37,443 nucleotides of DNA, taken from NCBI GenBank assembly GCA_947470805.1, contig CANIVU010000088.1, positions 1 to 37,443 of the forward strand, read 5' to 3'. The position numbers were made by a program, and so were the translations under genes. Position 1 is the stretch's first letter. Every line of letters begins with the position of its first letter. Positions 1,404 to 23,063 of this stretch are shown here, one piece after another. This DNA comes from Acidobacteriota bacterium. Lineage in GTDB: Bacteria; Acidobacteriota; Terriglobia; Bryobacterales; Bryobacteraceae. Under the pieces are notes generated by a model, which saw only the letters and a program-made list of their open reading frames with translations, was not told the DNA's origin and did not search any database.

Positions 1404-2702
1404 CTATTTTTCAAGGACATAGTGGGCGGCATAGCCGCAGGAGAGGGGGAGGCTGTCCTCGGCGGTGCAGCGGACGACGAGTTGGTAGGCGCTGGGGAAA
1501 CCGGGGAGACCATCCTGGCGGAAGTGGTTTTTGAGGTCCTGGAGGCGTTCGGGAGAGGAGAAGAATTCCATGGCGCCTTGGGTGCCGACCTGGGAGACGC
1601 CAGAGACGATGAGGGTACGGCGCGGTTCGCCGGGAGTGCCATCGGAGGGGAGGACGGTGAGGAGGCCATAGACCTGGGCCGGTTCACCGGGGCGGCCTTC
1701 GCGGCGGGAGAAAGCGGGCGGATCGGAGGCGGGTTTCTGGCGATCGCGGATGACGAGTCGGCTGGTGGCGGGATCCTGGACGACGGTGAGGCGGCCGCGG
1801 CTGAGGAGGTGGGCGGCGGCGAAGGAGTTGATGGGGTCGCCAAAGAGGATGACGTTGCGATTGCGGAAACTGGCGAGGGGGGCTGAGCGTTCGGGGAAGA
1901 TCTGGTAGTGGGCGCCGAAGGAGCGCAGGGTGGAGGAGACGGCGGCGGCGCCTCCGACAACACCGAGGTTGGCGACGTTGGGGGCGGGGCGCATGGAGAG
2001 GGTGGCGCCGTCGGGAAGGGGGTTGGATTTGCGGTAGAGGGACTGGATTTCGGGGGGAGTGGAGAAGGTGGGGAGATCGCTATCGGGGGAGAAGCCGCCG
2101 GGGCGGACGAGCATGTGGAAATTGGAGGCGACGCAGATGAGGACGTTGGCTTGCGCGGTGGCGAGCGGGCCCCAGGCTTCATGGAGGATGGAGTTGGCGG
2201 GGGAGGCGGCGGGGGTTGCGGGCCAGAATAGGCGCATGAGGAGGGCGCCGAGGAGGAACGTCAGGGCCGGAATGAGGAAAGAAGGACGGGCGGGCGGAGG
2301 TGGGGCGGGCTCGGGCTGGAGTTCCGGGGCGGAGGGCGGAGCAGGGGGCGGGGCTTGATCGTGAAAGCGAAAGATGGGGACGTAGGAGCCCTTGGGGAGA
2401 TCGATACGGACATCGCTGGCGGCGAGTTCGCCGGCGTAGACTTCGTCGAGCTTGTGGCGGAGTTCGAAGGCGCGGCGGCGGACGGAGGAGTCCGCAGTGG
2501 GGGAGTAGGACGGGTGGCGGCCGAGGGCTTCAACGCCGATGGAGTACTCTTTGATTTCGGCGGCGCGGCCGGCGATTTCGAGTTCGCAGACGTAGCGGAG
2601 GAAGTTCTTGAGCTGTTCGCTGCGGGAGAAGGTTTGGCTCTCCAGAACGCTGGCAAGCGCCTGTTCTCGTTCCTCTCTCGCCGGAGCTACAGGCCTATTC
2701 AT
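1404..2702 (-). CDS. Membrane-anchored winged-helix regulator (module A)
   Basis: This 432-residue protein is predicted to be a one-component transmembrane regulator. Residues 10-115 form a winged-helix-like domain with the conserved run IKEYSIGVEALGR, then DSSVRRRAFELRHKL and IDLPKGSYVPIF. This resembles the N-terminal domain of proteins often annotated as adenylate-cyclase-like or CadC-like regulators. A proline-rich linker (about 117-139) leads to one hydrophobic segment (about 140-160), then an extracytoplasmic domain of about 270 residues. That C-terminal domain is shared with the protein at 17028-18245 (for example LIVSGVSQVGTQGAMEFF here). It is divergent from the TonB receptor at 2840 and upstream of a sulfatase. 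The DNA-binding role is inferred from family resemblance; the ligand is unknown. Confidence 0.72.
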   Translation of the reverse strand: MNRPVAPAREEREQALASVLESQTFSRSEQLKNFLRYVCELEIAGRAAEIKEYSIGVEALGRHPSYSPTADSSVRRRAFELRHKLDEVYAGELAASDVRIDLPKGSYVPIFRFHDQAPPPAPPSAPELQPEPAPPPPARPSFLIPALTFLLGALLMRLFWPATPAASPANSILHEAWGPLATAQANVLICVASNFHMLVRPGGFSPDSDLPTFSTPPEIQSLYRKSNPLPDGATLSMRPAPNVANLGVVGGAAAVSSTLRSFGAHYQIFPERSAPLASFRNRNVILFGDPINSFAAAHLLSRGRLTVVQDPATSRLVIRDRQKPASDPPAFSRREGRPGEPAQVYGLLTVLPSDGTPGEPRRTLIVSGVSQVGTQGAMEFFSSPERLQDLKNHFRQDGLPGFPSAYQLVVRCTAEDSLPLSCGYAAHYVLEK

Positions 2703-2730
2703 CTTGGTTTCTTAAGAGGATACAGGAATC

Positions 2731-2756
2731 CGCAACGGGTTGCAGCAACGGTTGCG
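2731..2756. promoter_or_regulatory. Candidate operator B: GCAACGG repeat with dyad symmetry
   Basis: This 26-bp element begins with CGCAACGGG and ends with CAACGGTTGCG. The outer arms CGCAAC and GTTGCG are perfect inverted repeats, and GCAACGG occurs twice, 13 bp apart. It lies 29 bp upstream of the regulator start and 83 bp upstream of the TonB receptor start. A weak -10-like TATCCT on the minus strand (2717-2722) would place the element over the -35 region of the regulator promoter. GCAACGGTTG is shared with the element at 1383-1402. Autoregulation is inferred. Confidence 0.5.
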
Positions 2757-2839: not shown

Positions 2840-5800
2840 ATGACGAACAGCCGAATTGGGTTGGCGGTGGTGATTTTGTGGGCGGGCGCGATGGGTCTGT
2901 TGGCGCAGGAATCGCGCGGGGTGATCGCGGGCCGGGTGAGCGACAGCACGGACGCGGCGGTGGCCGGGGCGCGGGTCCAGGCGTCGAACGTGGAGACAGG
3001 AATTGTGACGACGGCGGTGAGCGGAGATGGCGGGGGATACCGGTTGCCGTTCTTGATCCCGGGGACGTATCAGGTGACGGCGGAGTTTGCGGGGTTCAAG
3101 AAGGTATCGATGGACGGCGTGGAGGTCCGGGTGGGCGAGACGTTGGACCTGGCTCTGCGGCTGGAGGTGGGGAATGTGGCGGACACGGTGGAGGTGAGCG
3201 GGGCGGCGCCGTTGCTCGAATCGGGCACGGCATCGATGGGGACGTTTATGGACTCGCGGCGGCTGCAGGAGTTGCCACAGCGGGGGGGGAACCCAATGGA
3301 ACTGGCGCGACTGGCGCCGCAAGTGGTGAACCTGACGAATTTGCGGGCGCTGAAGGCGTCGTCGCCAAGCGGGACGTCGCAGATGGCGGTGAGCGGCGGG
3401 CCGCGGTTCAGCACGGAGTTTCAGATTGACGGGATCAGCAACACGACGGCGGATTTGGGGGACGGGCGGGTGCGGGTGGCGTTCATTCCGCCCTCGAGCG
3501 CGGTGAGCGAGTTCCGGATGGAGGTGTCCCCGTATGATTCGACGTTCGGGCATACGCCGGGGGCGACGGTGAACATCAGCACGAAGAGCGGGACCAATCA
3601 GATCCATGGCGATTTGCGGTACTGGTTCCGGAACTCGGCGCTGGACGCGCCGAACTGGTTTGAGAACCGGAACGGGACGAAGCCCGCGATCTATCAGGAC
3701 AACCGGTACGGGGCTTCGGCGGGCGGGCCGGTGTGGATTCCGAAGGTGTACGACGGGCACAACCGGACCTTTTGGTTCTATGCGTATGAGGGGAACCAGT
3801 GGGGGCGGCCGACATCGTCGACGAATACGGTGCCGACGCTGGCGCAGCGGAACGGGGATTTTTCGGCGTTGTTGACGATCCCCAACGGGAGCCGGTACCA
3901 GATCTACGACCCGTTTACGACGCGGGCGGCGGCCAATGGGCGGTTTCAACGGGACCCGATTGTGGGGAATGTCATTCCGCGGAGCCGCCTGGACGCGGTG
4001 GGGCTGAACCTGGTGAATCTGTTCCCGGCGCCGAATATCGCAGGGCGGAACGACGGGACGAATAATCACTTCTACTCCGATGTGCGGAAGCAGGAGTACA
4101 ACACGCAGTTCGGGCGCATGGACCATCAGTTCCGGGAGGGACACCGGATCTTCTTCCGGGCGCACGATTACGACTGGATCAGCGGGCAAGACCGGTATGG
4201 GCTGCCGGTTTCGCGGTTCAATACGCGGTCCGGGCGGCGGGGATTGGCGTTGGACGATGTGCTGATTTTGAGCCCGACGATGGTGTTGAATTTGCGCTAC
4301 GGGCTTTCCTATGGGGACATGGGCGAGGCGCGGGACACGCAGGGGACGGACTTAACGACGCTGGGGTTTTCGAAGGCACTGGCGAGTTTGGTGGACCCGA
4401 CGTTATCCACGGTGCCGCGGATGCGGGCTGGGGCATATTCGCCGTTGGCTGAGTGGAGCAACGGGGACGGGGCGAACAGCACGATTGCGCATACGGTGCA
4501 GGCAAACTTCACGAATACGCGGGGCGCGCACACGCTTCGGTATGGCTTGGACGCGCGGTTGTACCGCGGCTTCGGGACGCGGATTCCGCTGGCGAATTCG
4601 CCGGATTTGAACTACTCGAACGCGTTTACGCGCGGCCCGTTAGACAATTCGGCGGCGGCGGCAATCGGGCAGGAGTTGGCGTCGATGCTGTTCGGGATTC
4701 CGGATGGACAGATGGAGCGGACGGCGACGTCGGCGTTTCAAGACCTGTATTTCGCGCCGTTTTTCCAGGACGACTGGCGAGTGAACTCGCGACTGACGCT
4801 GAACCTGGGGTTGCGGTACGAGTATGAGACACCGTTGACGGAGCGGTTCGACCGATTGGTGGCGGGGTACGACGTGACGGTGCCGAATCCAGTGGACGGG
4901 CCGGCGCGGGCGGTGTATGCACTTAACCCGATTCCGGAGATTGCTCCGGCGGCGTTCCGGTCCATGGGCGGGTTGCGCTTCGTGGGGCAGAACGGGAATG
5001 GCCGGAGCCCGTTCCGGGGGGAGAAGGACAACGTGCTGGTGCGGGCGGGGCTGGCGTACAAGGTGGCGAAGAACACCGTGGTGCGGGCGGGGTACGGGAC
5101 GTATTTTGACAGCATCGGCACGTACCGGACGATTCCGCAGCAGACGGGGTTCAGCCAGTCGACGCCGATCCAGTCATCGCTCGACAACGGGCTGACGTAC
5201 GTAGCGCGGAACGCGAATCCCTTCCCGCAGGGGCTGATTCCGGTGCAGGGCTCGACGGCGGGGCTGGCGACGAGTCTGGGGCAGGGGTTTTCGTACTACG
5301 ATCCGAACCTGAAGCAGGGGTACTCGCAGCGGTGGTCGTTCAACGTGCAGCAGATGCTGCCGGCGCAGGTGATGGTGGAGGCGGCATATGTGGCCAACCG
5401 GGGCACGCGGCTGGCGATTTCGCGGGATTTCAACTCGATTCCGAACCAGTATTTGAGCCGGGCGGGGGCGCGGGATACAGCGGTGATCGGGTCGTTGTCG
5501 CAGCAGTTGCCGAACCCGTATTTCGGGCTGGCGCCTTCGTACACGAGGACAATTACGCGGGGGAATCTGTTGCGCCCGTATCCGCAGTTCGGCAACTTGA
5601 GCGCGGTAGTGCCGGATGGCTATTCCTGGTACCACTCGCTGCAGTTGCGGGCGGAGCGGCGGATGCGGAACGGGCTGAGCCTGCAGGCGTCGTATGTATG
5701 GTCGAAGTTCATGGAAGCGATTGAGTATTTGAACGCGGCGGATGAACGGCCGTATGAGGTGATTGCGGACAATGACCGGCCGCACCGGATTTCGGCGAGC

Positions 5801-6307
5801 GGGATCTGGGAACTGCCGGTGGGGCGTGGGCGGCGGTATGGGGGGACGATTCCGAAGGCTTTGGATTTGGTAGCGGGAGGGTGGCAGTTGAATGGCGTGG
5901 TGATTGTGCAATCGGGGCCACCGCTGGGTTTTGGGAATTCGATTCTGCTGGGCGATCTGAAGTCGGTGCCGCTTGCAGGCAGTGAGCGAAGCGTGGACCG
6001 GTGGTTCCGGACGGAGGCGTTTGTGCGGGACGCGAGCCTGCAGTTGCAGTCCAACCGGGTGCAGCTGCCGCTGCGGTTCAGCGGGATCCGGGGAGATGGG
6101 CAGCGGGCGTGGGACTGGTCGCTGTTCAAGACGTTCCCGGTGACGGAGCTGGTGAAGGTACAGTTCCGCGCGGAGGTCTACAATGCTTTTAACCAGGCGA
6201 GTTTCAACGCGCCGAACCGGAACCCGACAAGCGGGGCGTTTGGCACGGTGACGGATACACAATCGGAAGCGCGCAACTGGCAGTTTTCGCTGTTCGTGAA
6301 GTTTTAG
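2840..6307 (+). CDS. TonB-dependent receptor with carboxypeptidase-regulatory-like domain (module A)
   Basis: This 1155-residue outer-membrane receptor is likely to import a large substrate such as an oligosaccharide, powered by TonB. Residues 1-22 are a signal peptide ending at LLAQ. A carboxypeptidase-regulatory-like beta-sandwich follows (about 26-112). The plug domain (about 115-255) contains FQIDGIS and GATVNISTKSGTN, and the rest is a long beta-barrel. The protein ends in FSLFVKF, with the terminal aromatic residue expected for barrel assembly. The start is supported by GAGGGAG four bases before the ATG. The sulfatase gene follows 16 bp after the stop, so the two are probably co-transcribed. 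Codons are strongly G-ending. Acidobacteria carry many such receptors; the substrate is not visible. Confidence 0.9.
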   Translation: MTNSRIGLAVVILWAGAMGLLAQESRGVIAGRVSDSTDAAVAGARVQASNVETGIVTTAVSGDGGGYRLPFLIPGTYQVTAEFAGFKKVSMDGVEVRVGETLDLALRLEVGNVADTVEVSGAAPLLESGTASMGTFMDSRRLQELPQRGGNPMELARLAPQVVNLTNLRALKASSPSGTSQMAVSGGPRFSTEFQIDGISNTTADLGDGRVRVAFIPPSSAVSEFRMEVSPYDSTFGHTPGATVNISTKSGTNQIHGDLRYWFRNSALDAPNWFENRNGTKPAIYQDNRYGASAGGPVWIPKVYDGHNRTFWFYAYEGNQWGRPTSSTNTVPTLAQRNGDFSALLTIPNGSRYQIYDPFTTRAAANGRFQRDPIVGNVIPRSRLDAVGLNLVNLFPAPNIAGRNDGTNNHFYSDVRKQEYNTQFGRMDHQFREGHRIFFRAHDYDWISGQDRYGLPVSRFNTRSGRRGLALDDVLILSPTMVLNLRYGLSYGDMGEARDTQGTDLTTLGFSKALASLVDPTLSTVPRMRAGAYSPLAEWSNGDGANSTIAHTVQANFTNTRGAHTLRYGLDARLYRGFGTRIPLANSPDLNYSNAFTRGPLDNSAAAAIGQELASMLFGIPDGQMERTATSAFQDLYFAPFFQDDWRVNSRLTLNLGLRYEYETPLTERFDRLVAGYDVTVPNPVDGPARAVYALNPIPEIAPAAFRSMGGLRFVGQNGNGRSPFRGEKDNVLVRAGLAYKVAKNTVVRAGYGTYFDSIGTYRTIPQQTGFSQSTPIQSSLDNGLTYVARNANPFPQGLIPVQGSTAGLATSLGQGFSYYDPNLKQGYSQRWSFNVQQMLPAQVMVEAAYVANRGTRLAISRDFNSIPNQYLSRAGARDTAVIGSLSQQLPNPYFGLAPSYTRTITRGNLLRPYPQFGNLSAVVPDGYSWYHSLQLRAERRMRNGLSLQASYVWSKFMEAIEYLNAADERPYEVIADNDRPHRISASGIWELPVGRGRRYGGTIPKALDLVAGGWQLNGVVIVQSGPPLGFGNSILLGDLKSVPLAGSERSVDRWFRTEAFVRDASLQLQSNRVQLPLRFSGIRGDGQRAWDWSLFKTFPVTELVKVQFRAEVYNAFNQASFNAPNRNPTSGAFGTVTDTQSEARNWQFSLFVKF

Positions 6308-6323
6308 TGGAAATAGGAAGACG

Positions 6324-7757
6324 ATGAATTCAATGACCCGTAGGCAGCTGTTTTTTCATGGGACGGTGGGGCTGGCGCTGCGCGCCGCTGAGCCGAAGAA
6401 GCGGCCGAATGTGCTGTTTTTCGCCGTGGACGACCTGCGTCCGGAGTTGGGGTGTTATGGCGTGGCGGGTATCAAGAGCCCGAACATCGACCGGCTGGCG
6501 AAGCGGGGCATGGTGTTTGAACGGGCGTACTGTCAGCAGGCGGTATGTTCGCCGTCGCGGACCAGCCTGATGACGGGCGCGCGGCCGGATTCGACGACGG
6601 TGTGGGACCTGGTGACGCACTTCCGGAAGGCGATGCCGGAGGTGGTGACGCTGACACAGCACTTCAAGCAGAACGGATATTTTGTGCAGGGGATGGGGAA
6701 GATTTTCCATCCGGGCTACGACGATGAGCGGAGTTGGAGCGTGCCGTGGCAGACGCCGAAGGCGCCGACGTACGCGAAGGTGAAGGGGCCGGACGAGAAA
6801 GACGAGGACAAGCCCAAGCAGAAGGACGGCCCGGCGTATGAGGCGGGCGAGGTTGCCGATGATTTCTACAAAGACGGGCAGGTGGCCAATCTGGCGGTGA
6901 AGACGCTGCAGGGATTGAAGGGGAAATCGGAACCGTTCTTTCTGGCGGTGGGATTCGCCAAGCCGCATCTGCCGTTTGTTTCGCCGAAGAAGTATTGGGA
7001 TCTGTATGACGCGGCAAAGATTCCGATGGCGGCGAATCCCTACCGGCCAAAGGGCGCGCCGGAGTTTGCGTTGACCAATAGCGGCGAGCTGCGGAACTAT
7101 CCAGGAATGCCGGCGGAGGGGGCGATTCCGCCGGAGCTGGCGCGGAAGTTGAAGCATGGCTACTACGCGGCGGTGAGCTACACGGATGCGCAGATTGGGA
7201 AGGTGCTGGACGAGTTGGACCGGCAGGGGTTGGCGGAGAATACGGTGATCGTGCTGTGGGGCGACCATGGGTGGAAGCTGGGCGAGCACGGCGAATGGTG
7301 CAAGCACAGCAACGTGGAAAACGACACGAACGCGCCACTATTGATGTCCGCGCCAGGGATGAAGGCGGCCGGGAAACACAGCCGGGCGCTGGTGGAGTTT
7401 GTGGATATTTACCCGACGCTGGCGGACCTGGCGGGGCTGCCGTTGCCGGCGCATTTGGAGGGTACGAGTTTTAAGCCGCTGCTGGATAACCCGGGCCGCG
7501 CGTGGAAGCCGGCGGCATTCAGCCAGTATCCGCGCGGGCAGAAGTTGATGGGCTATTCGATGCGGACAGACCGGTATCGCTTTACGGTATGGGTGGGGCG
7601 GAACGATCATTCGCGGATTGAGGCCGTGGAGCTATACGACCAGCAGACGGATCCGCAGGAGAATACGAACATTGCCAAACAGCAGCCGAAGCTGGTGGGC
7701 GAACTGATGGAGCAGTGGCGCGCCGGGTGGCAGGGCGTGAAGAAGGGGATGGGCTGA
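6324..7757 (+). CDS. Iduronate-2-sulfatase-like sulfatase
   Basis: This 477-residue S1 sulfatase carries CSPSR, with Cys75 as the formylglycine site, and a metal-binding Asp pair at residues 36-37. The stretches ELGCYGV, THFRKAMPEVVTLTQHFK and GKIFHPG are typical of the iduronate-2-sulfatase-like group (often called S1_7), so a sulfated sugar is the probable substrate. MTRRQLFFHG at residues 4-13 resembles a twin-arginine signal, although the hydrophobic stretch is short. An AGGAAG-like ribosome-binding site precedes the start. It sits directly behind the TonB receptor. Its stop codon abuts the stop of the opposing gene at 7758, with no base between them. The preferred sulfate position cannot be read from the sequence. 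Confidence 0.9.
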   Translation: MNSMTRRQLFFHGTVGLALRAAEPKKRPNVLFFAVDDLRPELGCYGVAGIKSPNIDRLAKRGMVFERAYCQQAVCSPSRTSLMTGARPDSTTVWDLVTHFRKAMPEVVTLTQHFKQNGYFVQGMGKIFHPGYDDERSWSVPWQTPKAPTYAKVKGPDEKDEDKPKQKDGPAYEAGEVADDFYKDGQVANLAVKTLQGLKGKSEPFFLAVGFAKPHLPFVSPKKYWDLYDAAKIPMAANPYRPKGAPEFALTNSGELRNYPGMPAEGAIPPELARKLKHGYYAAVSYTDAQIGKVLDELDRQGLAENTVIVLWGDHGWKLGEHGEWCKHSNVENDTNAPLLMSAPGMKAAGKHSRALVEFVDIYPTLADLAGLPLPAHLEGTSFKPLLDNPGRAWKPAAFSQYPRGQKLMGYSMRTDRYRFTVWVGRNDHSRIEAVELYDQQTDPQENTNIAKQQPKLVGELMEQWRAGWQGVKKGMG

Positions 7758-8369
7758 TCAGGGTTTTCGCAGGATTTTCGTTCTGAAGAAGCGCTTCAAG
7801 TCCGGGGAGAATTCCAGGATGAGGTTTTCGGCGGCAATCTGGCCTACCTGCTGGTGGCCTAGCTGAAAGCCTTTTTGGCGAATGGAATAATTGTCGGGGT
7901 ACAGGCTGGCGCCGAGATAACCAGCGCCATAGGCGGAGACGATGTTGGAAGGGTCGAAACGGAGCGTGCCTTTGGAATCGGCCTGGACGAAAATGCCGAC
8001 GAGAGCGTGGCCGGTGCGGCGCCAGGGCCCCTTGCAGTCACAGCGCTGATAGCGGGGGTCGTGGCCGAGAGCGGCGGTGCCGAGGGACTGGATGAGATCC
8101 CGGGAGGTACGGGTGACGGCGTTGACGGCCAGGCGGCGGCCGAAGCCTTCGGCGTCTTTGTCCCATTCTTTTGGCCGGTCGGCGAGCTGAGCGCCGAGGG
8201 AGGGGCCGACGGTGCGGAAGAAAGCGCCGGGGGAGGCGAAATCGTTCCGGAGGAAGAGTTCGACGCGCTGGGAGCCGGTGAGAGGGGCGTCCGATTGGGA
8301 GCGGGTGCGCCAGTTGGGATCGGCCTGGGCAAAGACCGGGAGAACAAGGAGGAAGAGGAGAGATTTCAT
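7758..8369 (-). CDS. Exported protein of unknown function
   Basis: I do not assign a function to this 203-residue protein. MKSLLFLLVLPVFAQA is a clear signal peptide. The mature part contains ALGHDPRYQRCDCKGPWRRTG, split here as ALGHDPRY and then RCDCKGPW with two nearby cysteines. Later comes YGAGYLGASLYPDNY, which has a small-residue and aromatic pattern common in acidobacterial envelope proteins. It is the last gene of the exporter operon, three bases after the DUF2147 stop, so it is probably co-expressed with the efflux components. An envelope or outer-membrane location is inferred. Its stop is directly back to back with that of the sulfatase. Confidence 0.75.
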   Translation of the reverse strand: MKSLLFLLVLPVFAQADPNWRTRSQSDAPLTGSQRVELFLRNDFASPGAFFRTVGPSLGAQLADRPKEWDKDAEGFGRRLAVNAVTRTSRDLIQSLGTAALGHDPRYQRCDCKGPWRRTGHALVGIFVQADSKGTLRFDPSNIVSAYGAGYLGASLYPDNYSIRQKGFQLGHQQVGQIAAENLILEFSPDLKRFFRTKILRKP

Positions 8370-8372
8370 TGG

Positions 8373-8768
8373 CTATTTTTCCAGGGCGCAGAGGTTGGCT
8401 TGATCGCCAGTGAAGGATTGCAGCGTGAGCGTTTTGGAGAGAAACGCTATGGAAGCGCGGACTGTGAGGTTGTTTTTGCCATCGGTTGTGGCGGTGGCAT
8501 TTAGGGGTGTCTTCATTTCAGGAGGCTGGAGGGAGCCTTCCCATGGATGCTTCTTCTCATTCCAGATGAAATCCAGGAAGAGTTTGGTGCCACAAAAGTT
8601 GGCGGGCGGGTTCTGTTTCTTTGTACCGGCAGCGTAGCCGCAGAAGCCAGCGCCGCAGGGGGCGATGCGGACGATGAGGCCTTCCGCGGGGTTGACCCAG
8701 AGACCGGCGGGAATGGGTGGCTGGGCGAAGGCCACGGGGAGCAGCAAGAGAAGGGTGGCTGGTGTCAT
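8373..8768 (-). CDS. DUF2147-like exported protein
   Basis: This 131-residue protein has a signal peptide ending near VAFA, then the pattern seen in DUF2147 proteins: GLWVNPAEGLIVRIAPCG, a FCGYAAG loop, and later FCGTKLFLDFIW and WEGSLQPPE. The conserved cysteines and WEG motif fit a small periplasmic beta-rich domain of unknown function. Its ATG overlaps the stop of the TolC-like gene in an ATGA junction, and the unknown exported gene follows after three bases. This places it firmly in the exporter operon. Its role in export is not known. Confidence 0.72.
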   Translation of the reverse strand: MTPATLLLLLPVAFAQPPIPAGLWVNPAEGLIVRIAPCGAGFCGYAAGTKKQNPPANFCGTKLFLDFIWNEKKHPWEGSLQPPEMKTPLNATATTDGKNNLTVRASIAFLSKTLTLQSFTGDQANLCALEK

Positions 8769-10057
8769 TGGGCGAGTCCTTGCAGCTGACCGGCGGCGAT
8801 GAGGAGATCGAGCCGGGCGAGATCGAGTTGGTGGCTGGCGGCATCGCGGGAGTCGCGAGCGCGGATGAGCCGGGTTTGGGCGTCGGCGAGATCGAGTTCG
8901 AGGCCTAACCCGGCTGACAGGCGGGCGCGGGACTGGGTGAGCTGCTGTTCGGCAAGGTCGAGTTCGGCTTTGGTGAGATCCGAACGGGTGCGCGCGGAGG
9001 TAACGGAACGGTGGGCGAGGATGACGTCGAGGTGGATCTGGCGGCGGAGGTCGCGGGTGCGGGTTTCCTCGTCCCGGAGGGCGAGTTCGGCCTGCGACAG
9101 GTCGGCGCGGCGGCGGCCCCCATCGAAGACGGGGATGTTGAGGGAAAGGGAGAGCGAGCGGGTGTTGGCGGTATTGGCTGGGGTGAGACCGTTGGGGCCG
9201 TAATCGGCGGAGCCGGAGATGGTGGGGAGGAACTTGCGGCGGGCCGCAGTGACGCGGAGAGCGGCCACTTGTTCGCGTTTCTGTTGGGAGGCTAAATCAG
9301 GACGATGGGATTCGGCGAGAGGGATGATGGCGGCCGGGTTGTCCGGAAGGGCGTCCGAGGTGGCAGGGCGCTGAAGGCGGAGTTCGCCTTCCAGAGGGAG
9401 GCCGATCCAACGGCGGAGGGTGAGTTCCGCCTTTTCGGCTTCGAACTTCGCGGCGGTGAGGGCGCTATTGTCACTGGCGGTTTGGGCACGGGCGCGGAGG
9501 AGGTCCACGCTGGTGACGGTACCGGCGGCGAGGCGGATGCGGGCGGCGTCTTCGAGCTCGCGGGAGAGTGCGAGATTGGCGGTAAGCAGCGCGATGCGTT
9601 CGTTGGCGCGGAGGGCGTCGTAATACACGCGGGCGATCTGGGCGGCGACGGCGTGGCGCTCCGATTCGAGATCGTCGGCGGTGCGGGCGATGTCGCGGCG
9701 GGCGGCTTCGTGGGTTTTGCGGGCAGACAGATCGAGGAGCGTGGCGTTGACGGCGGCGCGGGTGTCGAAGGAGGTGAAACTGGGATTCAGGTTTGCGGGG
9801 CCGGTACCGAGCGAACCGATGCCGAGAGTGGCGAGGTTGCGGGTCTGTTCGCCGCCGGTGGCGCGTATATCGACAGAGGGCAGCATGGCGGCGCGGGTTT
9901 GGCGGGCGGAGAGTTCGGCGCGGGAGCGGTTGGACTCCGCGAGCGCGAGGGCGGCACGGTGGCGCGGGTCGAGGCCCAGGCGAATGGCGTCGGCAAGCGT
10001 GAGTGGCTGCTGGCTCCAGGCGGCAAGGCTGAGGAGGATTAACACGAGGGACTTCAT
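8765..10057 (-). CDS. TolC-family outer-membrane efflux channel
   Basis: This 430-residue protein is an outer-membrane factor that would form the exit channel of a tripartite exporter. It has a short signal peptide ending near AAWS, then two repeated halves. Each half has an amphipathic helical stretch rich in Ala, Arg, Glu and Gln, such as QTRAAMLPSVDI and ARRKFLPTISGSADYG, followed by a strand segment. LPLEGELRL and LSLNIPVFDGG are typical of the family. The length matches TolC relatives. The gene overlaps the membrane-fusion gene by ATGA at its start and the DUF2147 gene by ATGA at its end. It should partner with the ABC transporter encoded upstream. Confidence 0.9.
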   Translation of the reverse strand: MKSLVLILLSLAAWSQQPLTLADAIRLGLDPRHRAALALAESNRSRAELSARQTRAAMLPSVDIRATGGEQTRNLATLGIGSLGTGPANLNPSFTSFDTRAAVNATLLDLSARKTHEAARRDIARTADDLESERHAVAAQIARVYYDALRANERIALLTANLALSRELEDAARIRLAAGTVTSVDLLRARAQTASDNSALTAAKFEAEKAELTLRRWIGLPLEGELRLQRPATSDALPDNPAAIIPLAESHRPDLASQQKREQVAALRVTAARRKFLPTISGSADYGPNGLTPANTANTRSLSLSLNIPVFDGGRRRADLSQAELALRDEETRTRDLRRQIHLDVILAHRSVTSARTRSDLTKAELDLAEQQLTQSRARLSAGLGLELDLADAQTRLIRARDSRDAASHQLDLARLDLLIAAGQLQGLAQ

Positions 10058-11142
10058 AGAGACTCCTTTGCGCCGAGGTAGGCGGTGACGCGCTGGCCGG
10101 GAAGGAGCGGGGTGGCGGCGTCGAGTTCGATGAGGACTTCCAGGATCTTGGTGTCGATCCGTTCGCGGGGATCGTCGGTGCGGAGGTTCTTGCGGCCGAT
10201 TCGTTTGCCAATCTCTGTGACTCGGCCGGGAAATCGCTCCTTTGGAAAGCTAACGGCGGTGACGAAGGCGGGCGTGCCGAGGGAGACACGGGCGATATCG
10301 CGTTCATCGACGTCGGCACGGACGCGAATCTTGGAGAGATCGCCGAGGAGGAGGAGCGGATCCCCGACGCCGGGGAGCACGTATTCGCCTTCTCTGTATT
10401 TCAGCTGGAGAACGGTTCCGGCGAAGGGGGCGCGGATTTGACGGGCGGAAAGCTGCGCCTGTTTTTCGGCCAGGCGGGCCCGGGCGGTTTCGATGCGGGC
10501 GGTGGCGATGGAAACGTCCTCCGGGCGGGGGCCGTTGGCGGTGGCGTTGCGGCGGGCGCCGGCGGCTTCATAGGCGGCACGGTCCTGTGCGGCCTGATGG
10601 CGGGCGCGGTCGTGCTCGTCGTTGGTGACCAGGTTCTGGCGGGCGAGCGTGTCGAGCCGTTGGAGCGCGGCGGCGGACTGGGCGGCGCGTTCGCCGGCCG
10701 CATCGGCATCGCGGCGAGCGGCGTCAATGAGTTCAGGACGTTCGCCGGCGTTGGTCTTTTGGAGATCCCGTTCGGCGGCGGCGACTTCGGCCTGCGCGCT
10801 TTCGACAGCGGAGGCTTCCAGCCGCGCGTCGAGCTCGACAAGCAGCTGGCCGGCGAGGACGGCGGCGCCTTCCCGAACGAGGATTCGTTTAATGACGCCG
10901 CTCGACATGGGGGCGATTTTGCCTTCGCGGCCGAAGGGTTCCACGATGCCGTTCCCGGTGACGAGTGTGGCGGGTTCGGCTTGGGTGGCGACCGCTTGGC
11001 GATTGAGGACGGCAGCACGGTCGGCAGCGGTTGGGATCGACAGGGTGTTGCCGGCTTTGAGTTGGTAGACGACCATACCGGCGGAGAGCAGTAGGACGGC
11101 GCCGGCGATGAGTGAGAACCATTTCAGTTTCGGGAACTTCAT
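10054..11142 (-). CDS. HlyD/DevB-type membrane-fusion protein
   Basis: This 362-residue periplasmic adaptor should bridge the inner-membrane ABC transporter and the TolC-like channel. A single membrane anchor lies at residues 9-27. A split lipoyl-like domain is visible around SGVIKRILVREGAAVLAGQL (81-100) and again around IRAPFAGTVLQL (237-248). Between them is an Ala/Glu/Arg-rich coiled-coil hairpin (about 110-235). A beta-barrel region follows, with LPGQRVTAYLG near the end. The start is set at MKFPKLK because this ATG overlaps the ATPase stop in ATGA. The frame stays open further upstream, but that part is merely the shadow of the ATPase gene. Confidence 0.9.
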   Translation of the reverse strand: MKFPKLKWFSLIAGAVLLLSAGMVVYQLKAGNTLSIPTAADRAAVLNRQAVATQAEPATLVTGNGIVEPFGREGKIAPMSSGVIKRILVREGAAVLAGQLLVELDARLEASAVESAQAEVAAAERDLQKTNAGERPELIDAARRDADAAGERAAQSAAALQRLDTLARQNLVTNDEHDRARHQAAQDRAAYEAAGARRNATANGPRPEDVSIATARIETARARLAEKQAQLSARQIRAPFAGTVLQLKYREGEYVLPGVGDPLLLLGDLSKIRVRADVDERDIARVSLGTPAFVTAVSFPKERFPGRVTEIGKRIGRKNLRTDDPRERIDTKILEVLIELDAATPLLPGQRVTAYLGAKESL

Positions 11143-13113: not shown

Positions 13114-13122
13114 GAAGGCAAC

Positions 13123-15969: not shown

Positions 15970-17031
15970 ATGAAACTTCTTGCGCCTTTTTTCATGCTTG
16001 CAGCCTTGGTATTTGGCGGCACGGTTTACACGTGGACGGATATGGGAACGCACCAGGGCGCGAGTACGGGCGCCAACGGCCTGAACAACAATGGTGAGGT
16101 GGTAGGCGTGTTTTCCTCGGGTAGCGGATTTCATGCCTGGAAGTATAGTGGCGGCGTTTTCACGGATATGGGGACGATGGGCGGGATTATTAGCGAGGCG
16201 AACGCGATCAACAACAGCGGGCAGATTACGGGCCGGTCGCAGATTGCGAATGGGAATGAGGTGGCGTTTGTCCATCAAGGAGGCCTTTTCACGAACATCG
16301 GTTCGCTAGGCGGGGTGAGCACGATCGGACAGGGAATCAACGAAAACGGATGGGTGACCGGGTATGCGGATACGGCGAATAGCGGTGCGTATCAGACGTT
16401 CTTGTACAACGGAACGAGTTTTGTGGCTTTGAACTCGCTGGGAGGCGGGTCGGGTCAGGGGATAGATGTGAACGCCAGCGGATGGGTGACCGGGGGGTCA
16501 TACACGGCGGGTGGGCAATTCCACGCGTTCGTGTGGGACGGAGTAACGATGATTGACCTGGGGACGATGGGCGGCGTTTATAGCATCGGCCGCGGGATCA
16601 ATGACGCTGGACAGGTGGCGGGTTACCTGGTTGATAGTTCCGGCAACTTCCACGGATTTCTGTATACACCCGGAGTAGGGATGGCCGACATCGGCATGCT
16701 GGGCACGCAGTTTACCTTTGCGCGGGCGATCAATTCAGCAGGGTGGGTGACCGGGAATTCAGCGAACGCGAGCTTTCAAAATCGGGCGTTCGTTTATGAC
16801 GGCACGACGATGCAGGATATGAATTTGTTGTCGTTTGTGACGCCGTTGCCGACGGTGCTGACGGTTTCGTTTGGAATCAACGATGTGGGCCAGATCATCG
16901 CCAATGGCGACGATGGGAAGGCATATCTGCTGACGCCGGTAGGCGGGGACGTGCCGGAGCCGGGGACGTGGGCAATGATGACGATGGGGTTGGCGGGAGT
17001 GGCGTGGCGGGCGAGACGCTATCGGGGCTAG
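15970..17031 (+). CDS. HAF-repeat protein with PEP-CTERM anchor
   Basis: This 353-residue exported protein starts with a signal peptide ending near VFGG. It then has about six or seven imperfect repeats of roughly 45 residues. Each has a segment like DMGTMGGIIS or DLGTMGGVYS followed by IN..G.VTG, as in INENGWVTG, VNASGWVTG, INDAGQVAG and INSAGWVTG. This is the pattern of the HAF extracellular-repeat family. The C-terminus has VPEPGTWAMMTMGLAG, then a hydrophobic helix and RARRYRG. This is a standard PEP-CTERM sorting signal, normally cleaved by exosortase. The gene is divergent from a pyruvyl-transferase-like gene, and PEP-CTERM systems are known to go with exopolysaccharide production. A surface or matrix role is inferred. 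Confidence 0.88.
   Translation: MKLLAPFFMLAALVFGGTVYTWTDMGTHQGASTGANGLNNNGEVVGVFSSGSGFHAWKYSGGVFTDMGTMGGIISEANAINNSGQITGRSQIANGNEVAFVHQGGLFTNIGSLGGVSTIGQGINENGWVTGYADTANSGAYQTFLYNGTSFVALNSLGGGSGQGIDVNASGWVTGGSYTAGGQFHAFVWDGVTMIDLGTMGGVYSIGRGINDAGQVAGYLVDSSGNFHGFLYTPGVGMADIGMLGTQFTFARAINSAGWVTGNSANASFQNRAFVYDGTTMQDMNLLSFVTPLPTVLTVSFGINDVGQIIANGDDGKAYLLTPVGGDVPEPGTWAMMTMGLAGVAWRARRYRG
16027..16911 (+). repeat. Coding repeats of the HAF protein
   Basis: The repeats are visible at DNA level as well. GGGTGACCGGG occurs three times, each encoding part of GWVTG, in units near 16350, 16480 and 16745. They are imperfect, with unit lengths varying around 140 bp, so they look old rather than freshly duplicated. 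Confidence 0.6.
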
Positions 17032-18245
17032 TGACGGCGCCAGGCGACGATCTTGGAGGAGTAGGCGGTGCCTTCGGTGGCCTGGCTGGACAGGACAAGT
17101 TCAAAGGGAGGGAGCGGATCGGCGGGAGAAATGGCGAGCACGCGGCGGACTTCGGCTAAGGATTCCGGACGCAGAAGGAACTCGCCGGCGCCTTCGGTCC
17201 CTTCGAAGCTGATGCCGGCGATGAGCAGTACGGCACCGGAGCCGGAGAGGTTGTTGACGAGCGCTATGCGGCTCCAGTGGCCGGTTTCGAGCTCATAGGT
17301 GGTTGACTCGGCGGGTGAGGGTTGGCGGTTGATGATTTTGGCCTTGTCGAATTGGAAGTTCAGGCCGGCATCGAAGAGACCGGCCCATGGGTTGGAGGCC
17401 TGGCTGCCGGTGACGATAAGGTTGCCGGATTTGAGATCGCGGGCGCTGACGTGTTTGGCGTGGCGAATTTCGATGCGGCGGGCGGAGGAGGGATAGCCCT
17501 GGAGGAGTTTGGCGAGGACGCCTACGTCGGCGAGGGACGTGATCTGGCGGAGGGACATGTCGCGCCAGATGTGTGAGGCGACTTCGTTGCCGGTGAATTC
17601 ACGGGCGCCTTCCTCGACGAACTCGCGGCTGCCGTATTTGTCGACATCGGGCTGTTGACTGGACCAGCGGTTCATCGAAGCAAGCGCGGAATCGGTGAGG
17701 ACGAAACGGATGGGCCCGGGGGACTGGCGGAGGTATTGGGCGAAGACGGAGTCGGACTCCGCGGCCCATTCTGCGGGGCGGTTACGGTCGAGAGCGAGCC
17801 AGAGGGCAACGAGGGCGAGAGCAGCGGTGAGGGCGATCCAGAGGTAGGGCTTTGGCGGAACCGTTGGGGCAGGCGGGGCGGCGGCGAGGGGCCGCTCGGC
17901 GAAAGCGGGGACATAGGCGCCTTTCGGGATATCGAGGATGAGGGGTTCGTGGGCGCCCTCGGTGTCGAAGTATTCCTTCAGCTTGGTGCGAAGTTGGCGG
18001 GCGGAGGCGCGGACGATGTTGTCGTCAGCCGGGTTGTAGGTTTCAGGGCGGCCGAAGACATGGACGCCAATTTGCTGTTCACCGAGCGCCTCGGGATGGG
18101 CGGCGTGGGAGGTGATGTAAAGGAGTAATTCGCGGAGGCGGGCGGCACGTTGGAAGGCACGGCTAGCCAGAATCCGTTCGACGACGGCCTGGCGCACGAT
18201 GAAATCCGCGGACGCAGGCGGTGGAATCAACTCCTGTTCTGGCAA
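17028..18245 (-). CDS. Membrane-anchored winged-helix regulator (module B)
   Basis: This 405-residue paralogue of the regulator at 1404-2702 has the same order of parts. A winged-helix-like domain spans about 15-115 (EQQIGVHVFGR, DNIVRASARQLRTKL, LDIPKGAYVPAF). A short proline-rich linker precedes one membrane helix (about 134-152), and a C-terminal extracytoplasmic domain follows with LIAGISFEGTEGAGEFLL. The likely start is TTG at 18245, with AGGGGT six bases upstream. Its stop shares CTAG with the stop of the HAF gene. It is divergent from the TonB receptor at 18318, only 72 bp away. Regulation of that receptor is inferred from layout. Confidence 0.72.
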   Translation of the reverse strand: MPEQELIPPPASADFIVRQAVVERILASRAFQRAARLRELLLYITSHAAHPEALGEQQIGVHVFGRPETYNPADDNIVRASARQLRTKLKEYFDTEGAHEPLILDIPKGAYVPAFAERPLAAAPPAPTVPPKPYLWIALTAALALVALWLALDRNRPAEWAAESDSVFAQYLRQSPGPIRFVLTDSALASMNRWSSQQPDVDKYGSREFVEEGAREFTGNEVASHIWRDMSLRQITSLADVGVLAKLLQGYPSSARRIEIRHAKHVSARDLKSGNLIVTGSQASNPWAGLFDAGLNFQFDKAKIINRQPSPAESTTYELETGHWSRIALVNNLSGSGAVLLIAGISFEGTEGAGEFLLRPESLAEVRRVLAISPADPLPPFELVLSSQATEGTAYSSKIVAWRRH

Positions 18246-18255
18246 TCAGTTACCC

Positions 18256-18285
18256 CTGTGAATCACAGCCTTAGCACAGTGAATT
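18256..18285. promoter_or_regulatory. Candidate direct-repeat operator of module B
   Basis: CTGTGAATC (18256) and CAGTGAATT (18277) are near-identical direct repeats exactly 21 bp apart, or two helical turns. The first copy also begins a perfect palindrome, CTGTGA-A-TCACAG (18256-18268). Evenly spaced direct repeats are the usual target shape for OmpR-like winged helices. They lie in the 72-bp gap between the regulator and the TonB receptor. Confidence 0.42.
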
Positions 18286-18317: not shown

Positions 18318-21300
18318 ATGGTTAAGACCATGTTGACACCGAGAGTCCTTGCCGCCTTTCTGATTTTTGCCGGCACCGCGCTGGCGCAGACCGCCCAACT
18401 GAATGGGCGGGTGACGGACGCGACCGGGGCAGTTGTGCCCGCCGCCGCCGTTTCCGTGCGCAGCGCCGCGACGGGGACTGAACGGCAGACGCAGACGAAC
18501 GACGTTGGGCTGTATACGCTGCCGCTGTTGCCGCCGGGCGTGTATGAGATTCGGGTGAACCATACAGGGTTCAAACCGGTGCTGCAGGGAGGGGTACGGC
18601 TGGAGGTGGACCAGAGAGCGACGGCGGATTTCACGTTGGAGGTGGGCGCAACCACCGAGCAGGTGGAGGTGCGCGGTTCGGTGAGCCGGTTGAACACGGT
18701 GGAGGCATCGCAGGGGCAGGTGATCGACAATCAGCGGATTGTAGACATGCCGTTGAACGGGCGGAACTACCTGGACCTGGCTTTGATGTCGGGCGGGGCG
18801 GTGCAGCCGGCGAACGGGTCGCGCTCGGGCGGGTTCTCCGCTGGCGGACAGCGGATCAGCCAGAACAACTACATCATGGACGGGATTGACAATAACTCGG
18901 TGGAACTGGCGGCAGCCGGGCGGCGGGCGGAGATGGTGGAGCCGTCGATTGACGCGATACAGGAGTTCAAGGTGCAGACGAATTCCTATGCGGCCGAGTT
19001 CGGGCGCGGGATGGGCGCGGTGGTGAACCTGACGATCAAGAGCGGGACGAACGCGATTCACGGGACGGCGTTCGAGTTCGTCCGGAATGAGATCTTCGAC
19101 GCCAGGAACTTCTTCACGCCGGCCGGGGCGGCCAAGCCGCCGTTCAAGCGAAACCAATATGGTTTTTCGTTTGGCGGGCCCGTGGTGATTCCGCGGGTCT
19201 ACAACGGACGGAACAAGACGTTCTTCTTTGGCGACTTTGAGAAGACGCGAATTCGCGAGACTTCGACGATTGCCAGTACACTGCCGACGGTGAAGATGCG
19301 AGCAGGGGACTTTTCAGAGTTGACCAAGCGGGTGAACGACCCGACGACGGGGCTGCAGTTCCCAGGGAACGTCATTCCGGCTTCGCGGCTGGATGTGGTG
19401 GCGAACCGGTTGGTGAAGCTGTACCCGGCGCCGCAGAGCGCGGCACTGGCCAACAACTTCACGTATCTTTCGCCGCGCAACCAGAACGTGGATAAATGGG
19501 ACTTTCGCGCGGACCACAACATGGGCGCGTCCGACAACTTCTTCTTCCGCTTCAGCGCGCACGACACGTTTCTGCCCGACACACCGTCCCTGCCGGCGCC
19601 GGCCTATGGGAGCGGAAATCTGGATTACATCACCGAAGGCGTGAACACCGGCATCGGCTGGAACCATATCTTCTCGCCGAGCCTGATTCTAACGACGCGC
19701 GCGGGCTGGAACTATGCGCGGTTCCAACGGAACAATCCGGCGTCGGCGCTGGGCCACAATTTCAATCAGGAGTTCGGCATCCCGGGCGCGAGCTACGTGC
19801 CCGATGGGAGCTTTTCGCAGATGGCGATAACGGGATATCGCGCGTTGGGCATCGGCGCGAACAACCCGGTGGACCGCAACTCGCAGAACCGCCAAGTGAA
19901 TGGTGATCTGACCTGGGTGCGCGGGCGGCATTCGATCAAAACGGGCGCGTCGTTCATCCGTTCGCAGAATCCGATTTACAACATCCGGAACACGCTGGGC
20001 ACGTATACGTTTAACGGGCAGTATTCGGGCGACGGGGCGGCGGATTTTCTGCTGGGCGTGTCGAGCCAGTGGGCGTGGCAGTCGCCGCTGCAGGTATCGA
20101 TGCGGACCTTCAATTTCGCGGTGTATACGCAGGACGATTGGAAGATCAACAACCGGCTGACCATCAACCTGGGATTCCGGTATGAGGTGAGCCCGCCGTG
20201 GCTGGAGAAGTCGAACAAGATGGGGAACTTCGATATCGACTCCAAGCCCGGACAGGCGCAGCTGGTCTATTCGACGTCGAGTGGTTCGCGGGCGGACCGG
20301 GCGACGGTGGCCACCGACACCAATAACGTGATGCCGCGTGTGGGCTTTGCGTACAAATTGAACAACAAGACCGTGATCCGATCCGGATACGGACTGTTCT
20401 ACGCCTACATGCAGAACATGGGAGACAGCGAATACATCATTGGCAATGCGCCGTTCGCCTATGGCGTGACGCTTACGGGCAGCACGACCGTGCCCGCGGT
20501 ACGGTTGGCGACGGGCCCGGCGGCCGGGGCGACGGAGTTGAGCAAGGCGACCGGGTTGCAGTTTTCTTCGTATGAGCGCAATCCGCCGCAGTCGAGTGCG
20601 CACCAGTGGAACATGAACGTCCAGCGGGAGTTGGGGAACGACTGGCTGTTGGAGGTTGGGTATGCGGGCTCGCGTGGGCTGCATCTGATCCGGCGTTATG
20701 ACGGGAACTTTTCGCCGGCGGGGGCGGGAAGCATCGATGCGAAACGGCAGTTCAAGAGCCTGGTGATACCGGGGACCGGGATTACGGCCTCGCCGCTGGG
20801 GCCGGTATACAGCCACCGGGCTGACGGGAATTCGATCTACCACGCAATGGTGGCGAAGATTGAGAAGCGGTTTTCTAAGGGGCTGACTCTCTTAGGCTCC
20901 TACACGTGGTCCCGGACGATTGGGGATACGTGCGGCCAGTCTGTCGACGGAGACGCGGCGGGATGCGGATTCCAGAATCTGTTCAACCTGCGGCCGGAGC
21001 GGAGCCTGGACAATCAGGATGTGCCGCACCGGTTTGTCACGTCGGTGCTGTATGAACTGCCCGTCGGCAAGGGGCGGCATTTCCTGGCCGGGGCGCCGGG
21101 AGTGGTGGATGCGGTGCTGGGCGGATGGTCGTTGGGCTCGATCGTCACGGGGACTGCGAACCTGCCGTTCAGCCCGACGGTGCAGGGGAATCCGGCGAAC
21201 ACGGGAACGTATGGCGTGGTGCAGCGGCCGGACGTGGTGGGGGCGGCCTACGACGGCGAACGAACGTTGCAGCGGGACTTCAATACCGCGGCTTTTGCGC

Positions 21301-21560
21301 GGCCGGCGAACTTCACGTATGGTTCGGCGGGGCGAAATATCCTGCGCGGGCGGCCTCAGTTCAACTGGGACTTTTCGGCGTTGAAGAACTTCCGGATTAC
21401 CGAACGGGTGAAGGCTCAGTTCCGGTTTGAGGCGTTTACGTTCACCAATACGCCTCGGTTCGGGGCGCCGGGGAACGTGTTGGGTACGGCGGCCTTCGGC
21501 GTGATCAGCAGCGCCGCGACCCCGCGGAATTTGCAATTTGGTTTGAAGCTACTCTGGTAG
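18318..21560 (+). CDS. TonB-dependent receptor with carboxypeptidase-regulatory-like domain (module B)
   Basis: This 1080-residue outer-membrane receptor has the same architecture as the one in module A. It has a signal peptide to about residue 23 (TALAQ) and a carboxypeptidase-regulatory-like domain (about 26-112). The plug domain (about 113-255) contains MPLNGRNYLDL, MDGIDNN and VVNLTIKSGTN, and a long barrel ends in FGLKLLW with a terminal aromatic residue. The ATG at 18318 is chosen because GAGGTGG precedes it by six bases and it gives a proper signal peptide. The sulfatase gene follows 12 bp after the stop. Codons are more C-ending than in the module A receptor, so the two are not recent duplicates. 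Confidence 0.9.
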   Translation: MVKTMLTPRVLAAFLIFAGTALAQTAQLNGRVTDATGAVVPAAAVSVRSAATGTERQTQTNDVGLYTLPLLPPGVYEIRVNHTGFKPVLQGGVRLEVDQRATADFTLEVGATTEQVEVRGSVSRLNTVEASQGQVIDNQRIVDMPLNGRNYLDLALMSGGAVQPANGSRSGGFSAGGQRISQNNYIMDGIDNNSVELAAAGRRAEMVEPSIDAIQEFKVQTNSYAAEFGRGMGAVVNLTIKSGTNAIHGTAFEFVRNEIFDARNFFTPAGAAKPPFKRNQYGFSFGGPVVIPRVYNGRNKTFFFGDFEKTRIRETSTIASTLPTVKMRAGDFSELTKRVNDPTTGLQFPGNVIPASRLDVVANRLVKLYPAPQSAALANNFTYLSPRNQNVDKWDFRADHNMGASDNFFFRFSAHDTFLPDTPSLPAPAYGSGNLDYITEGVNTGIGWNHIFSPSLILTTRAGWNYARFQRNNPASALGHNFNQEFGIPGASYVPDGSFSQMAITGYRALGIGANNPVDRNSQNRQVNGDLTWVRGRHSIKTGASFIRSQNPIYNIRNTLGTYTFNGQYSGDGAADFLLGVSSQWAWQSPLQVSMRTFNFAVYTQDDWKINNRLTINLGFRYEVSPPWLEKSNKMGNFDIDSKPGQAQLVYSTSSGSRADRATVATDTNNVMPRVGFAYKLNNKTVIRSGYGLFYAYMQNMGDSEYIIGNAPFAYGVTLTGSTTVPAVRLATGPAAGATELSKATGLQFSSYERNPPQSSAHQWNMNVQRELGNDWLLEVGYAGSRGLHLIRRYDGNFSPAGAGSIDAKRQFKSLVIPGTGITASPLGPVYSHRADGNSIYHAMVAKIEKRFSKGLTLLGSYTWSRTIGDTCGQSVDGDAAGCGFQNLFNLRPERSLDNQDVPHRFVTSVLYELPVGKGRHFLAGAPGVVDAVLGGWSLGSIVTGTANLPFSPTVQGNPANTGTYGVVQRPDVVGAAYDGERTLQRDFNTAAFARPANFTYGSAGRNILRGRPQFNWDFSALKNFRITERVKAQFRFEAFTFTNTPRFGAPGNVLGTAAFGVISSAATPRNLQFGLKLLW

Positions 21561-21572
21561 GCGATTATCCCC

Positions 21573-23063
21573 ATGTTGAATCGACGCCAGTTTCTTGCTG
21601 CCTCCGCGGTTGCAGCGGCTCCGGCCAAGCGCCGGAATGTGATCTTTATTCTGAGTGACGATCACCGTTACGACGCCATGGGTTTTCTGAAGGCGCAGCC
21701 CTGGCTGCGGACGCCGCAGATGGACCGGATGGCGAACGAAGGCGTGCACTTCAAGAACGCCTTTGTGACGACGGCACTGTGCAGCCCGAGCCGGGCTTCC
21801 GTATTGACGGGCGTGTATGCGCACCGGCATCGGATTGTGGATAACAACACGCCGATTCCGGCGGGGACGACGTTCTTTCCGACGTATTTGCAGAAGGCGG
21901 GGTACAAGACCGGGTTCTTCGGCAAGTGGCACATGGGTGCGGAAACAGACGCGCCGAAGCCGGGGTTTGACCAGTGGGTGAGTTTCCGTGGACAGGGGAC
22001 GTATCTGCCGAATCCGAACGGGCTGAACGTGAACGGGAAGAAGGTACCGCAGAAGGGGTACATCACCGATGAGCTGACTGATTATGCGGTGGAGTGGATG
22101 CGGACTCTACCGAAGAATCAGCCGTATTTCCTGTATCTTTCGCATAAGGCGGTGCATGCGGAATTCCAGCCGGCGAAGCGGCACGAGGGGATGTACAAAG
22201 ACGCCAAGTTCGCTTATCCGCCGACGATGGCGGCCGATGGGGAGATGGCGCAGAACCGGCCGACCTGGGTGAAGAATCAGCGGAACTCGTGGCATGGGGT
22301 GGATTATCCGTATCACTCGACCCTGGATATCGCCGATTACTACAAGCGCTACGCGGAGACGCTGATGGCGGTGGACGAGAGTATCGGGCGGGTGTTCGAT
22401 GAATTAAAGACGCGCGGGGAGTTGGATTCGACGCTGGTGATTTACATGGGGGACAACGGGTTCGCTTTCGGGGAGCACGGGCTGATTGATAAGCGGACGG
22501 CGTATGAGGAGTCGATGCGCGTGCCGTTGCTCGCGCGGTGTCCGGAGTTGTTCGGGGGCGGAAAAACGGTGAAGGAAGTAGTGGCGGGGATCGACATTAT
22601 GCCGACCGTACTGGCAACTGCGGGGGCGGCGGGGCCGAAGGGATTGGACGGGATGAATTGGCTGCCGCTGGTGCAGGGGCAACAGGTCCCGTGGCGGAAG
22701 GAGTTGTTGTACGAGTATTACTGGGAGCGGAATTTTCCGCAGACGCCAACGATGCATTCGTTGCGCGGGGAGCGGTACAAGTTCATCCGGTATCAGGGGA
22801 TTTGGGATACCGATGAGCTGTACGACGTGCAGGAGGACCCGTTGGAGAGCCGGAACTTGATCGCCGATCCACGGGTGGCCGATGTTGTGAAGCAGATGCG
22901 GGAGCGGCTGTTTGACGTGTTGGAAAAGACGGACGGGATGAACATTCCGCTGCAGCGGGACCGTGGCGGCTTGAACAACAAACGGAATGAGGGGAAGGGG
23001 AAAGCGGCCGATTTCCCCGCGGAGATGTACAAGGCGCCGGGCGGGCCGGCGAGGCATAACTAG
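21573..23063 (+). CDS. Exported type I sulfatase (GlcNAc-6-sulfatase-like)
   Basis: This 496-residue S1 sulfatase has CSPSR with Cys70 as the formylglycine site and the metal-binding pair SDD (29-30). MLNRRQFLAASAVAAAPA is a twin-arginine-type signal peptide. The C-terminal stretch GMNIPLQRDRGG followed by KAADFP is common in a large bacterial group often annotated as N-acetylglucosamine-6-sulfatase or heparan-type sulfatase. That subgroup call is tentative. Metal-site residues in MGDNGFAFGEHG are intact. It follows the TonB receptor closely and shares a CTAG stop with the opposing GH57 gene. Confidence 0.9.
   Translation: MLNRRQFLAASAVAAAPAKRRNVIFILSDDHRYDAMGFLKAQPWLRTPQMDRMANEGVHFKNAFVTTALCSPSRASVLTGVYAHRHRIVDNNTPIPAGTTFFPTYLQKAGYKTGFFGKWHMGAETDAPKPGFDQWVSFRGQGTYLPNPNGLNVNGKKVPQKGYITDELTDYAVEWMRTLPKNQPYFLYLSHKAVHAEFQPAKRHEGMYKDAKFAYPPTMAADGEMAQNRPTWVKNQRNSWHGVDYPYHSTLDIADYYKRYAETLMAVDESIGRVFDELKTRGELDSTLVIYMGDNGFAFGEHGLIDKRTAYEESMRVPLLARCPELFGGGKTVKEVVAGIDIMPTVLATAGAAGPKGLDGMNWLPLVQGQQVPWRKELLYEYYWERNFPQTPTMHSLRGERYKFIRYQGIWDTDELYDVQEDPLESRNLIADPRVADVVKQMRERLFDVLEKTDGMNIPLQRDRGGLNNKRNEGKGKAADFPAEMYKAPGGPARHN

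Follow-up and report, generated by a model that had tools for sequence, protein, structure and literature searches.

What kind of system is encoded where two loci on one acidobacterial contig share a regulator gene, a divergent outer-membrane receptor gene and a sulfatase gene, and is the sulfatase a fixed part of it? The loci lie in the window, a stretch of 37,443 nucleotides (contig CANIVU010000088.1, here C88, of assembly GCA_947470805.1) from the 8.7-Mb genome of an Acidobacteriota bacterium of the family Bryobacteraceae. The first-pass annotation of this DNA described two copies of a module. The shared layout is real: in each locus a minus-strand gene encodes a regulator composed of a winged-helix domain, a proline-rich linker, a single membrane helix and an ectodomain (ectodomain X), and this gene diverges from that of a TonB-dependent receptor (TBDT), behind which a sulfatase gene closely follows. 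Module A contains regulator A (positions 1404-2702, minus strand) and receptor A (2840-6307, plus strand). Module B contains regulator B (17028-18245, minus strand, with an alternative start at 18197), which has the same architecture, and receptor B (18318-21560, plus strand). The likely start of receptor B is the ATG at 18318; the longest open reading frame, beginning at 18150, would run into regulator B.

The general unit is the regulator plus its TBDT, and sulfatases are a specialty of a few branches. The check proposed at the outset, whether receptor genes adjoin homologues of the regulator more often than random genes, gave an association far above chance. A divergent TBDT (match starting within 1.2 kb) was found for 48 of 91 regulators carrying ectodomain X (X-type regulators) and for 0 of 77 control genes, and a TBDT within 5 kb for 75/91 and 17/77, respectively. 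The 91 regulators were chosen among the matches listed, favoring those with room around them, and the control genes came from 20 stretches at round-number positions on large contigs of four genomes, with TBDT-overlapping genes excluded. Genes in the compared loci were called with a simple in-house caller, and the profiles for receptor, sulfatase, winged helix and X started from proteins of the window itself and were refined by iteration over those loci. The association was seen both within the same taxonomic family (TBDT within 5 kb, 58/70; divergent, 36 of the 67 having enough room) and in other families (18/21 and 12/21). Relatives of at least 500 residues that share the N-terminal domain and lack X gave 4/25 and 3/22, and among five shorter relatives with no X call, three have a divergent TBDT (two of the three appear damaged, and the other is a malectin form truncated at the end of a contig). 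No such regulator was present in the stretches of up to 2.4 kb examined beside 20 receptors of the window genome chosen as unpaired. The earlier proposal of a distinct class of sensor-regulator tied to TBDTs thus passed the linkage test as far as receptors are concerned, and no description of the pairing was found in the open-licence papers searched. A distance comparison of regulators and receptors gave a strong signal of co-evolution at first, which was lost when near relatives were removed; this weakens co-evolution as a proposal, as the two sets of distances do not track one another beyond near relatives.

The regulators belong to a large family. In its own genome 16 relatives were found with regulator A and 15 with regulator B, and of the nine X-type regulators counted there that lack an internal stop, seven face a divergent TBDT no more than 1.2 kb away. 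A profile search matched in 26/26 genomes of the same family, with the full form including ectodomain X in 24/26. Full-length matches were found in 5/7 other genomes of the class and in 1/82 outside it, in a sample of the phylum in which 19 candidates per genome were scored. A contig scan with regulator A alone gave only five loci and was not informative. Among the 30 short loci (L020-L049), six were omitted (G015:C328, G019:C451, G016:C449, G006:C24, G023:C562 and G009:C334) and the other 24 were covered as longer stretches. The closest named relative of regulator A (95% identity over residues 215-432) is in a metagenome-assembled genome of Candidatus Sulfopaludibacter, a group placed in Bryobacteraceae in an excerpt of PMC10564751. 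Two relatives in the window genome look damaged (G000:C5:28632-29846, L007, and G000:C22:65886, L014; one has an in-frame TAG and one is a 288-residue reading frame), and a divergent TBDT still adjoins both. An X-type match in another genome (G086:C1:738919-740181) carries three internal stops.

A hydropathy scan and structure models gave both regulators an N-terminal helical/winged domain, a linker, one predicted membrane helix (approximately residues 141-160 in regulator A, where the model also has a helix, and 134-152 in regulator B) and then a folded C-terminal domain, which would lie on the periplasmic side of the membrane. A second hydrophobic stretch of regulator B, at residue 327, is inside the modeled ectodomain. 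Searches of Pfam (E 10) and NCBIfam (E 0.1) matched neither protein, and ectodomain X has no Pfam family. Its models resemble the flavodoxin-like domain of BcsB, which is the best structural match, and the accessory N-terminal domains of GH67, GH115 and GH84 enzymes in overall fold, although X is only about 10-15% identical to them and sits on a transcription regulator. A further structural match was an S-layer anchoring domain. A 70-member profile searched against the sequences of solved structures gave chance-level rows only (best E 0.067). The sensor parts of the family are exchangeable, because the same N-terminal DNA-binding domain is also joined to malectin domains or PD40 propellers (L010, L018, L019, L008, L009 and L013), and in L010 the malectin form, too, has a TBDT facing it, across a gap of 227 bp.

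ToxR-like regulators are defined, in an excerpt of PMC5430869, by an N-terminal winged-helix domain, a single membrane helix and a C-terminal sensor domain. Regulators A and B share this domain order, with the single membrane helix between the DNA-binding and sensor domains. They differ from ToxR and CadC in the kind of ectodomain, in the linkage to TBDTs and in belonging to no Pfam or NCBIfam family; moreover, CadC is described with a four-stranded sheet before three helices, whereas the regulator model has no such sheet.

Receptors A and B both match CarboxypepD_reg (PF13620) and OMP_b-brl_4 (PF25183) and, more weakly, PF00593, with the CarboxypepD_reg domain preceding the TBDT barrel as in the Oar subclass. 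The plug domain PF07715 gave no match on either receptor at E 0.001; PF25183 may cover that part. The Oar-type TBDT of Myxococcus xanthus has the same N-terminal domain and barrel, but here there are many paralogues (65 places scored of 170 candidates in the window genome), some of which have a regulator of their own. Regulation confined to a single outer-membrane receptor is also known from the TonB-dependent transducers that work with FecR and extracytoplasmic function sigma factors; however, Pfam showed no STN signaling domain on receptors A and B, and the regulator is predicted to bind DNA itself.

The loci had been called a counterpart of the polysaccharide-utilization loci (PULs) of Bacteroidetes with no SusD. 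The latter point was borne out across the genome: PF07980 had no match in its 8.7 Mb (control matches were obtained in Bacteroides) and none among the window proteins scanned. The comparison is fair as an analogy only. SusR and the hybrid two-component sensors of Bacteroidota PULs are likewise membrane-bound sensor-regulators beside their own TBDT and varied glycan-active enzymes. The SusR and hybrid sensors have an AraC-type DNA-binding domain, unlike regulators A and B, and here an Oar-like receptor stands in place of SusC. The likeness goes no further because the genes behind the receptors are varied. As the genome lacks SusD, the regulator-TBDT pair is not classed as a Bacteroidota-type PUL.

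Nor are modules A and B two copies of one module. Alignment with MAFFT gave identities of only 29% between the regulators, 33% between the receptors and 30-35% between the sulfatases, which rules out a recent duplication. In BLAST comparisons receptor B (30%) was further from receptor A than were receptors beside regulators on C117 (47%) and C134 (39%). In a tree of the 91 regulators, A shares a clade of support 100 with L015 and L016, B shares one of support 95 with three G018 regulators, and the two clades are in different halves of the tree. The two modules are unrelated members of a regulator-receptor family rather than a duplicated sulfatase module. The receptors had also been said to differ in codon usage, but third-position GC is 0.835 in receptor A and 0.812 in receptor B, and no such difference appears at that level.

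The spacers between regulator and receptor contain candidate operators, neither with an assigned strand. Proposed operator A (2732-2755) consists of two imperfect GCAAC/GTTGC palindromes and a direct repeat of GCAACGG at 13-bp spacing. This 24-bp pattern has only one exact match in the genome, and the next match has three mismatches, the same as a reversed control pattern. It is kept in L015 (one mismatch) and L016 (two mismatches), while the surrounding spacer diverged. Proposed operator B (18250-18284) has the palindrome CTGTGAATCACAG at 18256-18268, which falls short of significance by itself (p 0.115), along with a direct repeat of 79% (18250-18263 and 18271-18284) at 21-bp spacing.

In the 48 regulator/TBDT spacers, direct repeats (at least 7 of 8 matches) were enriched at spacings of 10 bp (10 spacers, 2.5 expected, z 4.8) and 11 bp (9 spacers, 2.6 expected, z 5.6). 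Repeats at these spacings were not enriched in 44 other divergent spacers (z -0.8 and 0.3), nor did the stretches ahead of 20 unpaired receptors show an excess (z 0.9 and 1.1). The paired spacers also gave z 2.9 at 9 bp and z 3.8 at 21 bp, and in the unpaired-receptor control repeats at 9, 12, 15, 21 and 24 bp were enriched, which we read as coding sequence within those stretches. AACGGT half-sites 10-11 bp apart occurred in 10/48 spacers versus 2/44 of the others (other spacings, 4-6 of 48), and the 6-mer CGTAAC, among enriched 6-mers picked post hoc, in 16/48 spacers, 0/44 others and 2/20 unpaired receptors. Gibbs sampling gave a 22-bp motif, AcCGgtAnnnaACcg, at 11.66 bits versus 10.3-10.7 in four shuffled sets, an uneven comparison, as six starts were used for the real set and two for the shuffled sets; for this reason the repeat test is preferred. 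Tandem half-sites about one helical turn apart are a known mode of binding of winged helices of the PhoB type.

From the computed architecture, family membership, TBDT linkage, enrichment of spacer repeats and similarity of fold, we consider it probable that regulators A and B are ToxR/CadC-like one-component membrane-spanning regulators, each dedicated to one divergent Oar-like TBDT and sensing a periplasmic ligand. Ectodomain X would sense a ligand arriving in the periplasm, most probably an oligosaccharide admitted by the partner TBDT. Probably as a dimer, the regulator would bind half-sites repeated in tandem in the shared spacer, about one helical turn from each other, and may in this way set expression of the receptor and of the genes behind it. 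Glycan sensing is likely; the fold points that way, as do the malectin variants and some of the neighboring genes. The S-layer match and the mixed neighboring genes call for caution about glycan sensing; modules A and B themselves, at 13 and 21 bp, depart from the 10-11 bp repeat spacing; and palindromes as such were not enriched in a test on 31 spacers. We are more tentative, a little short of an even bet, about the broader proposal of an undescribed family with several to many members per genome, each the private switch of one Oar-like TBDT, in which a BcsB/GH67N-type domain would read an imported oligosaccharide and the winged helix tandem half-sites 10-11 bp apart.

How do the sulfatases fit? 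Sulfatase 2 (6324-7757, plus strand) follows receptor A and sulfatase 3 (21573-23063, plus strand) follows receptor B, and module A does have a second enzyme behind its regulator as had been stated, sulfatase 1 (24-1325, minus strand). All three match PF00884, have twin-arginine-like starts (on sulfatase 3 the TAT_signal match is weak and under the Pfam cut-off) and carry the S1 sulfatase signature C/S-x-P-x-R in the form C-x-P-S-R (C-G-P-S-R in sulfatase 1 and C-S-P-S-R in sulfatases 2 and 3). The nearest solved relatives are steryl-sulfatases for sulfatase 1, arylsulfatase 6hhm and iduronate-2-sulfatases for sulfatase 2, and mucin-desulfating and GlcNAc-6-sulfatases for sulfatase 3. An orthologue of sulfatase 1 occupies the same position in L015 (74%) and is absent there in L016. 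A second TBDT (L016:10233-13577) follows the regulator in L016, where the window has the sulfatase. PF03781, the formylglycine-generating-enzyme family, has 16 matches in the genome, and the best of these (G000:C10:128533-131685) adjoins a sulfatase.

A general linkage of regulator and sulfatase is ruled out, as a sulfatase lay within 7 kb of 12/91 regulators and 9/77 control genes (Fisher p 0.82). The earlier view of the sulfatase as part of the module holds only behind the paired receptors of the A and B branches. In 7/48 pairs a sulfatase on the same strand followed the receptor within 2.5 kb (window A, L015 and L016; window B, G018_C28 and G018_C84; and G074_C1), six of which are in the two unrelated branches of modules A and B. 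A fourth B-branch member, G018_C218, could not be judged, as its contig stops 8 bp past the regulator. Since exported sulfatases are among the genes that would be controlled there, sulfated glycans are the likely substrates of these branches. In an alternative reading, to which we give roughly one chance in four, both modules have their sulfatases by coincidence and neither A nor B acts on sulfated glycans: the genome is rich in sulfatases (71 places in 8.7 Mb), regulators show no excess of sulfatase neighbors, and sulfatases behind paired receptors (7/48) do not significantly exceed those behind other receptors (3/58, p 0.18). However, pairs with a sulfatase behind the receptor cluster together on the regulator tree (3 changes over 48 pairs; shuffle mean 6.6, with 1/300 that low), and the orthologue of sulfatase 2 is kept in L015 (83%) and L016 (69%). 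The B-branch sulfatases are only about 25-26% identical to that of the window and hence were not inherited as one module.

Two other explanations concern what the pair does. The regulator might sense the state of the receptor or of the envelope, for example through contact with a periplasmic domain of the receptor, rather than a free glycan. Linkage to the receptor and not to any single enzyme family would fit such sensing, as would the S-layer match and the resemblance to BcsB, a periplasmic assembly subunit according to an excerpt of PMC11379886. We think it unlikely, as regulator and receptor distances do not track beyond near relatives, a signal that a fixed contact between the proteins might well have left, and the malectin variants point to sugar ligands. 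Less likely still, and quite improbable, is that the Oar-like protein is an exporter secreting the neighboring Tat-type sulfatase across the outer membrane, with the regulator timing secretion. The Oar of M. xanthus is reported to secrete the protease PopC, and the excerpt of PMC6434023 that reports this gives the Oar subclass the same CarboxypepD_reg N-terminal domain, but exporting is shown there for one Oar-type TBDT alone. The twin-arginine-like starts of all three sulfatases would suit an exported cargo, and of the 65 receptors listed for the window genome, 5 are followed within 2.5 kb by a sulfatase on the same strand, where 1.2 would be expected; these are 2/7 paired and 3/58 unpaired receptors. 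Against this, 41/48 paired receptors have no sulfatase behind them, and the genes found there are too varied for a single cargo: behind 33 paired receptors, among the listed 25 of 72 gene families, were five sulfatases, three TPR proteins and one each of GH106, GH31, GH77, alginate lyase and others.

Other genes of the window adjoin the modules. Between them (7758-13743) lies an efflux set (OEP, HlyD-type, a reading frame at 11139-11831 and FtsX/MacB-type) adjoining a TetR-type regulator. Directly behind regulator B and convergent to it is a HAF-repeat protein with a PEP-CTERM sorting signal (15970-17031). A GH57 protein (23060-25066) is convergent behind the module B sulfatase, and a BNR-repeat protein (30444-31547) lies further on.

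Acidobacteria have very many TBDTs, the substrates and control of which are largely obscure, and a regulator family tied to single receptors gives a handle on both. The previously unannotated domain X gains a predicted fold and a likely role; the ligands of the ectodomains would name the substrates of the receptors, and the spacer repeats offer candidate operators for testing. If the proposal is true, these regulators would be to Acidobacteria what SusR and the hybrid two-component sensors are to Bacteroidota, and each genome could be read as a list of separately switched substrate channels, of which the A and B branches would have turned independently to sulfated glycans.
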